From: Akkermansia muciniphila
GTDB lineage: Bacteria > Verrucomicrobiota > Verrucomicrobiia > Limisphaerales > BJHT01
Length of the DNA: 40,178 nucleotides
Assembly (NCBI GenBank): GCA_945861535.1
Contig: CAMAUZ010000075.1
Coordinates: 1 to 40,178 of the forward strand
Direction: 5' to 3'
Both the position numbers and the translations under genes were made by a program. Shown piece after piece: positions 5,817 to 21,556 of this stretch. The notes beneath the pieces were generated by a model, which had not been told where the DNA came from, ran no database searches, and saw nothing but the letters and a program-made list of their open reading frames with translations. Position 1 is the stretch's first letter; the number at the start of each line of letters is the position of its first letter.

Positions 5817-5881
5817 ATTCGTGACCGGGGCGCTGCTGGGGCGCCCATTTGCGAGCAAAGCCAGCACCGACACCACTCGCC

Positions 5882-6505
5882 ATGAAAATGAACCGCCGCC
5901 CACCCGCCGCCGCGCCGCGCGTCGCCGAACTGTTCCGCCTGCTCCACCAGCGCAACCGTACGCCCGGCGCCCGTCGGCGCATCGACGCCGAGATTCAGCG
6001 GCGGTTCCGCAGAACTCGCGCCGTGCTCGTCCTCGACATGGCCGGCTTCTCGGTGTCGGTGCAGCGGCATGGAATCATCCATCACCTCGGCCTGATCTGT
6101 CACATGCGCCGGCGCGTGCGCCAGCAGGTCAACGCGACCGGGGGCTGGAGCTTGAAATTTGAGGTGGACAACGCGCTCGCCGTTTTTCGCACCGTGCCGG
6201 CCGCCTTGCGCGCGGCCCTCGCCATCAACCGGAGCTTCGCTGACGACAATCAGTCCGCCGCCGAGGAAAATCGCATCCACGCCTCGATGGGCATCGGCTA
6301 CGGCCCCGTCCTGCTCGCGTGCGACGATGTGTTTGGCGACGAAGTTAATCTGGCTTCCAAGCTCGGCGAAGACATCGCCAAGAGCGACGAGGTGCTGCTG
6401 ACCGCCAGCGCTCACCGGCGCGTGGGGACTCGGGCCGGGCAATTCGAGTCGCTGGACATTTCCATCTCGGGCATCCATCTCGGCGCCTTTCGATTGAAGG
6501 CCTGA
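5882..6505 (+). CDS. Class III nucleotide-cyclase-homology-domain protein, probably degenerate
   Basis: This 207-residue protein consists of a short basic N-terminus and one adenylate/guanylate cyclase homology domain. Recognisable blocks: VLVLDMAGFS (first metal Asp), GGWSLKFEVDNALAVF (position of the usual K-x-x-G-D motif; Lys and Asp kept, Gly replaced by Val), GIGYGPVLL and GDEVNLASKLGE (the usual VNLASRL, with the transition-state Arg replaced by Lys). There is no sensor, HAMP or membrane segment, so any partner would be separate. The substitutions make catalysis doubtful, and it may be a regulatory or dead homologue. A TTG lies 11 codons upstream; I prefer the ATG at 5882. It starts 65 bp after purB and could be co-transcribed. 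Confidence 0.75.
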   Translation: MKMNRRPPAAAPRVAELFRLLHQRNRTPGARRRIDAEIQRRFRRTRAVLVLDMAGFSVSVQRHGIIHHLGLICHMRRRVRQQVNATGGWSLKFEVDNALAVFRTVPAALRAALAINRSFADDNQSAAEENRIHASMGIGYGPVLLACDDVFGDEVNLASKLGEDIAKSDEVLLTASAHRRVGTRAGQFESLDISISGIHLGAFRLKA

Positions 6506-20296: not shown

Positions 20297-20740
20297 TTAC
20301 GGTTTGGCCCGCAGCAACACTTTGCTCATCGCACCACGGTGAGAACCCTTGACCAAATCCGCCAGAGTCTGCCGGTCGAGTCGTTCGTAAAAAGCGTTCA
20401 GCGCCTCACCCAGCACGCCTTTCAATCGGCAGCTTCCGGCGAGCCGGCAGGTGTTGGTGGCCATGTCGAAGCACTCGACGACCACGGGCTGTCCTTCCGT
20501 TTCGCGCACCAGTTTGCCGATGCGGATTTCCTCCGGCGGACGCCCGAGCCGGATGCCGCCGCCGCGACCGCGCCGGGTGTCGAGATAGCCGAGCTTGGAC
20601 AGGTTGTGGACCACCTTGACCAGATGATTGCGCGAAATGCCGTAGGCGGCGGTGACTTCGTCCACCTGAAACGCCTGGCCCTTCAGCGCGGCAAACATGA
20701 GGACGCGCAGGGAGTAGTCGCTAAAGAGGCTCAGGTGCAT
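20297..20740 (-). CDS. Rrf2-family NsrR-like iron-sulfur transcriptional regulator
   Basis: A 147-residue Rrf2 regulator. The winged helix-turn-helix spans about residues 1-75 (MHLSLFSDYSLRVLMFAA, EVTAAYGISRNHLVKVVHNL, RGRGGGIRLGRP). Three cysteines, Cys90, Cys98 and Cys104, are spaced C-x7-C-x5-C, the pattern of nitric-oxide-sensing NsrR. Asp8 is also present, the position reported as the fourth cluster ligand in Streptomyces NsrR. The segments after the cysteines (CRLKGVLGEALNAF, LDRQTLADL) are NsrR-like. ATG 20740 starts the canonical N-terminus, although frames extend 22 codons further. It is divergent from an exported globin gene, with an NsrR-type palindrome between them. This supports control by nitric oxide, but IscR-like or RirA-like sensing cannot be fully excluded. 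Confidence 0.9.
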   Translation of the reverse strand: MHLSLFSDYSLRVLMFAALKGQAFQVDEVTAAYGISRNHLVKVVHNLSKLGYLDTRRGRGGGIRLGRPPEEIRIGKLVRETEGQPVVVECFDMATNTCRLAGSCRLKGVLGEALNAFYERLDRQTLADLVKGSHRGAMSKVLLRAKP

Positions 20741-20854
20741 GGTAGTGCTGCATTCAAGCGGCCCAGAGTCGCAAGCGCGGTGTGAAACTGCAACCCTCCC
20801 GCCCACTTGGCGTCCGCCCGATCACCCCGGACCGGGACGAAAAAACGCTGCGAT

Positions 20855-20885
20855 TTGAAACATGTATTTCCAATACAGCTTATGT
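20855..20885 (+). promoter_or_regulatory. Candidate promoter of the YHS-globin gene overlapping the operator
   Basis: TTGAAA at 20855-20860 and TTATGT at 20880-20885 (19-bp spacing, somewhat long) flank the palindrome. If this is the promoter, a bound regulator would block polymerase. Confidence 0.35.
20859..20881. promoter_or_regulatory. NsrR-type palindromic operator between the regulator and the YHS-globin
   Basis: Half-sites AACATGTATTT and CAATACAGCTT surround a central C. Compared with the NsrR consensus halves AAGATGTATTT and AAATACATCTT, 19 of 23 positions agree. An outer inverted pair (TGAAACA at 20856-20862, TGTTTCA at 20884-20890) frames it. It sits 76 bp upstream of the globin ATG and about 118 bp from the regulator start, so it could control both. 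Confidence 0.65.
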
Positions 20886-20956
20886 GTTTCACACTGTCCG
20901 CGCTTGTTCGTTAGCCCTCAATCTTAAACCTGCAATTCAGCCGACACCCTGCACTT

Positions 20957-21556
20957 ATGAAACGAGTCCTTCCCGTGTTCGCCATCGTCACCGTCGCCCT
21001 CGCCCTGCTCACTAACGCCGCTCCCGGCGCCGAGCCGGCAGCCAAACCCGCTGTCGAGGAGATCAACAAGCTTTGCCCCATCAGCGGCAAACCAGTCGAT
21101 CCCAAGATTACCACAGTCTATGAAGGCAAGACCTACGCCTTCGCGGCCGAGGTTTGCCGGAAAAAATTCAACGAAGCCCGCGAGAACAGCCTCTATCACA
21201 AACTCGGCGGCAAGGCCGCGATCGATGCCGCCGTCGAGCTGTTCTACACAAAGGTGCTCGCCGACAACCGCATCAAGCACTACTTCGACGACATCAACAT
21301 GAGCAAGCAGCGCCGGAAGCAGAAGGAGTTCCTCGCCGCTGCGTTCGGCGGCCCCATTCCCTGGACCGGCAAGGACCTGCGCGCCGCCCACGCCAATCTC
21401 CCGGGACTCAATGACACCCATTTCTCCGCCGTCGCCGAAAACCTTCAGAAGACTCTTGTAGAACTGAAGATCAAAAAGGAACTGATCGATCAAGTCATGG
21501 CCATCGCCGCCAGCACCCACGACGACGTGCTCAATCGTCCGAAGAAAGCGAAGTAG
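20957..21556 (+). CDS. Exported YHS-domain and group I truncated haemoglobin fusion
   Basis: A 199-residue protein with three parts. Residues 1-25 form a Sec signal peptide (VLPVFAIVTVALALL, then NAAPGA-EP). Residues about 36-72 form a YHS-like domain (CPISGKP...TTVYEGKTYAFAAEVCRKKF; Cys40 and Cys67). Residues about 78-193 form a truncated globin: SLYHKLGG opening, B-helix LFYTKVL with Tyr97 at the usual distal B10 position, E-helix QRRKQKEFLAAAFGGP, and proximal haem ligand His145 in LRAAHANLPG. It is expected to bind haem in the periplasm and could dioxygenate nitric oxide or handle oxygen or redox chemistry. Divergent from an NsrR-like regulator with a shared operator. It has no lipobox, so it should be soluble or tethered by partners. 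A rare architecture as far as I know. Confidence 0.88.
   Translation: MKRVLPVFAIVTVALALLTNAAPGAEPAAKPAVEEINKLCPISGKPVDPKITTVYEGKTYAFAAEVCRKKFNEARENSLYHKLGGKAAIDAAVELFYTKVLADNRIKHYFDDINMSKQRRKQKEFLAAAFGGPIPWTGKDLRAAHANLPGLNDTHFSAVAENLQKTLVELKIKKELIDQVMAIAASTHDDVLNRPKKAK

Follow-up and report, generated by a model that had tools for sequence, protein, structure and literature searches.

A YHS-globin, an NsrR-type regulator and a recurring DNA switch suggest nitric oxide defence outside the inner membrane

Introduction

Globins that act as nitric oxide (NO) dioxygenases are chiefly intracellular and are fed with electrons by NAD(P)H reductases. The regulator NsrR carries three conserved cysteines (PMC4432287, in excerpt) and recognizes the palindrome gATGyAT-N5-ATrCATc (PMC1274295, in excerpt). 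In Legionella pneumophila, the gene for GlbN and a ferredoxin reductase gene are placed in one operon under NsrR, according to a passage of a review (PMC3820574). Truncated globins have been described as periplasmic in cable bacteria, where they are fused to pentahaem cytochromes (PMC11976967 and PMC12093952, both in excerpt). The YHS/TRASH domains bind metal through one Asp or Cys followed by three Cys, and the YHS domain of toluene monooxygenase was metal-free in the crystal (PMC4626032, in excerpt). In the open-access literature we found no paper that pairs a YHS domain with a globin or truncated hemoglobin, and only the work on cable bacteria was relevant to periplasmic globins.

Here, we describe a locus at which a YHS-globin, an NsrR-type regulator and a recurring DNA switch occur together, a combination that suggests an NO defence relocated beyond the inner membrane. 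A group I globin under NsrR control has a known precedent; what is new is the export and the fusion to a YHS domain.

Results

The window, by which we mean the whole 40,178-nucleotide stretch of DNA analysed, is contig C75 of a 7.94 Mb genome in 169 contigs (96.56% complete). A first-pass annotation had proposed two open reading frames, and both were found at the positions claimed: a regulator gene on the reverse strand (20297–20740; 147 residues, stop codon included in the coordinates) and a YHS-globin gene on the forward strand (20957–21556; 199 residues, stop codon included), divergent across an intergenic region of 216 bp. Gene order and identities at the locus are alike in a same-genus genome (G387) and in record L026, and among the genes tested the order of the window's other neighbours is kept only in the same-genus genome. 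The orthologue set comprises 28 loci (the window, L046–L065, L027–L029, L031, L032, L080 and L081), with L026, L030 and L079 left out as repeats of L046, L064 and L032, respectively; the globin domains of L027 and L028 are identical. A linked NsrR gene is divergent to the YHS-globin in 15 of the 28 loci and directly adjacent in 13, with an HPP gene in between in L064 and another truncated globin gene in L065. The latter (5878–6351; Bac_globin 23.6 bits) probably belongs to group III. The 13 loci that have no linked NsrR count against an NsrR-controlled globin. Record L050 starts 210 bases from a contig end, where a neighbouring gene could be missing.

A larger operon was considered and rejected, since clustering of neighbours across 26 loci gave no further partner with a fixed place. 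Besides the regulator and the globin, the clusters were HPP (3 loci), DUF1501 proteins (5 loci) and one of unknown identity (4 loci), as obtained with a crude gene caller that often picked antisense ORFs and therefore missed genes. Genes for HPP-family membrane proteins lie beside 3 of the 28 loci (L064, L065 and L031, Pfam-checked in the first two). HPP proteins are nitrite transporters, and their genes at these loci were counted in favour of an NO response.

The C-terminal part of the YHS-globin (residues 78–192; 21188–21532, forward strand) matches Pfam Bac_globin with 61.7 bits (cut-off 21), and the nearest solved sequences are cyanoglobins and the haemoglobin of C. eugametos. Tyr97 and His145, which the first-pass annotation names for its group I truncated globin, are both present and invariant in the 28 orthologues, as are Gln118 and Gln122; Lys121 is kept in 25. 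From their places in the alignment we take these residues to be TyrB10 (Tyr97), GlnE7 (Gln118), LysE10 (Lys121), GlnE11 (Gln122) and the proximal His (His145). A structure model of the whole protein from 8 sequences reached a mean pLDDT of 75.7 and a pTM of 0.65, with residues 1–33 below 50, and its globin part superimposes on 1dly (VIA Z 20.6, rmsd 1.5, 120 residues) in the 2/2 globin fold. The concern that the pocket might lack haem-ligand geometry was not borne out, as judged in this haem-free model from the globin fold and the conservation of the pocket residues. By its Bac_globin domain, fold and TyrB10/GlnE7/GlnE11/proximal His, the protein is a group I truncated haemoglobin, and it would be expected to bind haem. 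Covalent haem attachment as in cyanobacteria was rejected, the corresponding His not being conserved (by eye). A reference listed in PMC3820574 (in excerpt) links the B10/E7/E11 set in its title to NO detoxification by a group I globin, and the invariance of this set was counted in favour of NO removal.

The N-terminus holds a putative signal sequence (20957–21028, forward strand; approximately residues 1–24, from hydropathy), as the first-pass annotation had it: a 12-residue stretch from residue 7 has a mean hydropathy of 3.0, and 27 of the 28 orthologues keep such a core (12-residue mean at least 1.8) after a short start, with varying letters. The exception, L050 as called from a GTG, counts against export. 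The same score ranged from 0.02 to 1.81 in 21 solo globins, with L013, at 1.81, narrowly above the 1.8 threshold; scoring of these globins began where the match begins and left out N-terminal extensions, which makes them a weak control. For L060 an internal Met was taken as the start, and the true start of L055 probably lies later than called, because the called start is upstream of its own operator. Export across the inner membrane is, on these grounds, likely. The evidence being hydropathy, an N-terminus that is uncleaved or not exported could be imagined, leaving a cytoplasmic or membrane-anchored globin under ordinary NsrR regulation; this is quite improbable given a core that persists in 27 orthologues despite its varying letters and given a lipobox-like LITSC in L063. 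The latter protein (1482–1997 in its record, motif seen by eye) may be a lipoprotein, and is devoid of the YHS cysteines.

Between signal and globin lies a degenerate YHS domain (residues 37–77; 21065–21187, forward strand). The YHS-like domain of the first-pass annotation holds in that a Pfam match is present (residues 44–76, E 1.5e-5) and the core is kept, and it is weakened in that the 25.3 bits stay under the 30.3 cut-off and the fold scores are weak; two of six orthologues scanned gave no match at E 0.1. Modelled alone, residues 34–78 reached a pLDDT of 87, and their top PDB neighbours were ribosomal L24e (TRASH) and the YHS domain of the toluene monooxygenase hydroxylase, at weak scores (best Foldseek E 0.13, best VIA Z 4.9); VIA also ranked HIT-type zinc fingers from chromatin complexes high. 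The YHS part of L062 gave no meaningful match when its sequence was searched against the PDB, and no further YHS copies were found in the source genome. Asn37, Cys40, Ala63 and Cys67 occupy the four ligand positions in the window, so that two of four are lost; across the 28 orthologues, Asn is found at the first position in 25, Cys40 in 27, the middle Cys63 in 2 and Cys67 in 21. Tyr55-Glu56 is kept in all 28. Almost all members of the family thus have a disrupted metal site, with the core retained.

Metal binding, which had been raised for this domain, does not sit well with such a ligand set, and is unlikely because the middle Cys is kept in just 2 of 28 orthologues. A globin that responds to or delivers a metal such as copper through its YHS domain has a precedent in an adenylyl cyclase activated by copper via a YHS domain (PMC4626032, in excerpt), and the ligands kept in L061 (the sole orthologue with an acidic residue and all three Cys) and in L062 (all three Cys) speak for it. 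Set against the residues found in the window and the loss of the middle Cys (the third persisting in 21 of 28), such a role for the protein is highly improbable. The domain may rather have given up metal and act as a folded N-terminal adaptor, with a part in docking, in stability or in thiol chemistry via Cys40.

The regulator is an Rrf2 protein with Asp8 and C90-x7-C98-x5-C104, exactly the residues first reported for it; they are invariant in the 17 aligned regulators and also present in L063. We take Asp8 to be a cluster ligand. Against NCBIfam models it scored 124.5 bits for NsrR, 113.1 for RirA, 45.5 for the SUF regulator, 34 for IscR and 27.7 for CymR, and the nearest solved sequence is an NsrR (5n07). 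This bears out the expectation of NsrR rather than IscR or CymR. Because the best score stays below the NsrR cut-off of 182 bits (that of RirA is 193), the protein is filed only as a putative NsrR-type regulator, not a certified NsrR. Each of the 17 aligned regulators is matched by the NsrR model and by the RirA model, with the best E for NsrR. The missed cut-off and the closeness of RirA count against NsrR control, and they lend something to a regulator of iron or Fe-S status (RirA/IscR type) whose globin answers iron or oxidative stress and not NO. That reading is very unlikely, as the operator fits the NsrR consensus, IscR and CymR score far lower, and the regulated gene encodes an NO-detoxifying type of globin. 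By scores and operator, identity as RirA, IscR or CymR is less likely, RirA being the close one.

The intergenic region contains a strandless NsrR-like operator palindrome, AACATGTATTTCCAATACAGCTT (20859–20881), that agrees with 12 of the 14 published NsrR consensus positions and is self-complementary at 8 of 11. The near-consensus palindrome of the first-pass annotation is thereby upheld, except that its agreement at "19 of 23" was not reproduced, the consensus behind that figure being unstated. Among random 320-bp windows of related DNA (n=1428), 33 reached 11 and none reached 12, and those drawn when the later-added and solo loci were scored could overlap true sites. No score of 12 came from 200 dinucleotide shuffles of the region upstream of the window's own globin gene; with 200 shuffles per locus, 13 occurred at most once per locus set, the highest being that of L032. 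As a putative operator, the palindrome is clearly above chance for its position.

Sites follow the linked regulator. An upstream site of at least 11/14 is present in 12 of 15 loci with linked NsrR versus 1 of 13 without, and one of at least 12/14 in 11 of 15 versus none of 13. The first 26 loci gave 10/13 versus 1/13 at the threshold of 11 (Fisher p 0.001), and two further loci of the L032 group, each with NsrR and included afterwards, have operators scoring 13 and 12. The pair and the palindrome are thus conserved in relatives. The linked loci that miss 11/14 are L047 and L063 (10) and L065 (9; a more distant NsrR, 38%), of which L063 has a palindrome self-matching at 10 of 11 positions. The sole site of at least 11/14 without linked NsrR is that of L031 (G679), which has NsrR elsewhere in the genome; L062 (G495) also has an unlinked NsrR, yet with 9/14 before the globin has no site. 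An NsrR match at E 1e-12 is absent from 11 of the 13 genomes without linked NsrR, several of which are incomplete. By eye, a TTG occurs at one place just upstream of 8 of 11 operators (the window has none there), as if the operator covered the promoter spacer and the -10 element; control may be by occlusion.

A 20-position pattern, shaped after viewing the orthologous sites, was found genome-wide at this site only (at most 3 mismatches), from which a single-target regulon was at first inferred. The published 14-position consensus with at most 2 mismatches is found at 15 places (reversed control, 2), and the 14 further matches weaken that notion: the globin need not be the regulator's sole target, and they slightly lower the confidence in an NsrR-repressed, NO-removing globin. 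ORFs of 120 or more residues enclose thirteen of them (a loose test, since GC-rich DNA has many antisense ORFs), and the remaining match (C29:78135) falls between genes, ahead of an ORF that looks by eye like an ABC-ATPase. The genome-wide scan thus leaves a palindrome that exceeds chance at its own position and is not unique under the published consensus. We regard NsrR-type control of the YHS-globin as probable.

A Fer2/FAD/NAD reductase gene directly follows the solo group I globin in 9 of 21 loci (L006, L007, L090, L091, L092, L093, L094, L096 and L098), with NsrR nearby in L007, L092, L093 and L096. The same query at E 1e-5 found none in the 28 exported-globin loci, 25 of them searched with longer stretches (Fisher p 0.00014 for loci that are related, not independent). 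NsrR lies within the flank covered in 6 of the 21 solo loci (L007, L086, L092, L093, L095 and L096), and an operator score of at least 11 is found in 5 of these 6 versus 2 of the other 15. Thus, the exported version keeps the NsrR switch and is without a linked reductase. To our knowledge, no NAD(P)H is to be expected outside the cytoplasm, and the missing reductase fits such a location. Turnover would proceed without a visible electron donor, which counts against an NO dioxygenase. With the same switch and export, the globin could instead be a binder that buffers or stores O2 or NO, or a periplasmic ligand sensor, taking up one NO per haem without turnover. The absence of a reductase that 9 of 21 cytoplasmic cousins have, and of NAD(P)H, speaks for this; the B10/E7/E11 pocket and the NsrR control are those of NO-detoxifying globins, and an unlinked periplasmic donor could exist. 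We consider a binder somewhat unlikely, and NO removal as the main job of the YHS-globin fairly likely. As a separate observation, L008 (reverse strand, 1–1890) encodes a long PAS-domain protein with Bac_globin (85.8 bits) at its N-terminus, a sensor built on a 2/2 globin, and L025 has a similar globin-PAS architecture (by eye).

The source genome has no match to the PF00042 globin and, for that reason, probably no flavohaemoglobin; one other truncated-globin match reached 31.1 bits. NirK has no match in the source genome (4 of 21 related genomes have one above the cut-off), so no own source of NO was found, which was counted against an NO response.

The YHS-globin was matched at E 1e-50 in 19 of 293 genomes of the order (own genome included). 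Of 387 genomes sampled evenly across the phylum, 14 matched at 1e-10, and 3 of the 14, own included, covered the YHS part; around L032, a record titled Planctomycetota, 27 of 294 matched, 3 at full length. Contigs were scanned by two YHS peptide patterns, and the distribution covers two sampled phyla. Phage records gave no match, and among plasmids 38 records matched, none with 80% query coverage; annotation as group 1 truncated hemoglobin is given for 19 of the 20 matches listed, and the last has no annotation. In a tree of the 28 YHS-linked and 21 solo globins, a branch separates those linked to YHS from the rest (support 72/99; recovered in 74% of the trees of a bootstrap that had not settled), and because of this a single fusion event is favoured, not proven.

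Discussion

We lean towards a two-gene NO response unit with an NsrR-repressed, exported and NO-removing globin. This judgement combines partly dependent estimates for control, export and NO removal, and the alternatives weighed above overlap, their probabilities not summing to one. A cytoplasmic NsrR-type Fe-S repressor would sit on the one operator between the genes and block the globin promoter. We infer NO to be both signal and substrate: diffusing into the cell, it would damage the Fe-S cluster and release the repressor, whereupon the globin would be synthesized and sent across the inner membrane. On the far side, its oxygenated haem would convert NO to nitrate before NO gets to the cytoplasm, and a presumed periplasmic electron donor would re-reduce the haem. 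The YHS part would serve as the adaptor described above.

A bolder version would see a separate class of exported NO dioxygenases that gave up the cytoplasmic NAD(P)H-ferredoxin reductase of an NsrR-globin operon and recruited a metal-free YHS domain once, as a docking or thiol module taking electrons from a periplasmic donor; as it stands, we hold it to be unlikely. If the NO response unit is real, NO removal under NsrR control is placed outside the inner membrane, and two questions follow, namely how haem is inserted into an exported b-haem globin and what donor then reduces it again. With a single regulator, a single operator and one adjacent target, the unit is small enough for both to be approached with two proteins.

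In comparison with described systems, the locus shares with the NsrR of Gamma- and Betaproteobacteria, Bacillus and Streptomyces (PMC1274295, in excerpt) an Rrf2 protein with three C-terminal Cys and, by sequence, the gATGyAT-N5-ATrCATc palindrome before an NO-detoxification gene. It differs in a regulator below the NCBIfam cut-off, in belonging to another phylum than those named, and in a target that is an exported globin and not a flavohaemoglobin. Legionella GlbN is likewise a group I truncated globin under NsrR; here, a signal and a YHS domain are added and the reductase is missing. With the YHS/TRASH domains of L24e, toluene monooxygenase, copper ATPases and a mycobacterial adenylyl cyclase (PMC4626032, in excerpt), the modelled beta-beta-alpha arrangement, at weak fold scores, and the CP..G start are shared, whereas two of the four metal-ligand positions are lost and a globin is fused on. 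The truncated globins of cable bacteria are also called periplasmic, but are fused to a multihaem cytochrome. Finally, the group I truncated haemoglobins (C. eugametos 1dly, THB1, Mycobacterium HbN and cyanobacterial GlbN) have the same 2/2 fold, TyrB10, GlnE7, GlnE11 and proximal His, and the aligned 1dly sequence has Lys at E10 as does the YHS-globin, which adds to this scaffold a signal sequence and an N-terminal YHS domain.
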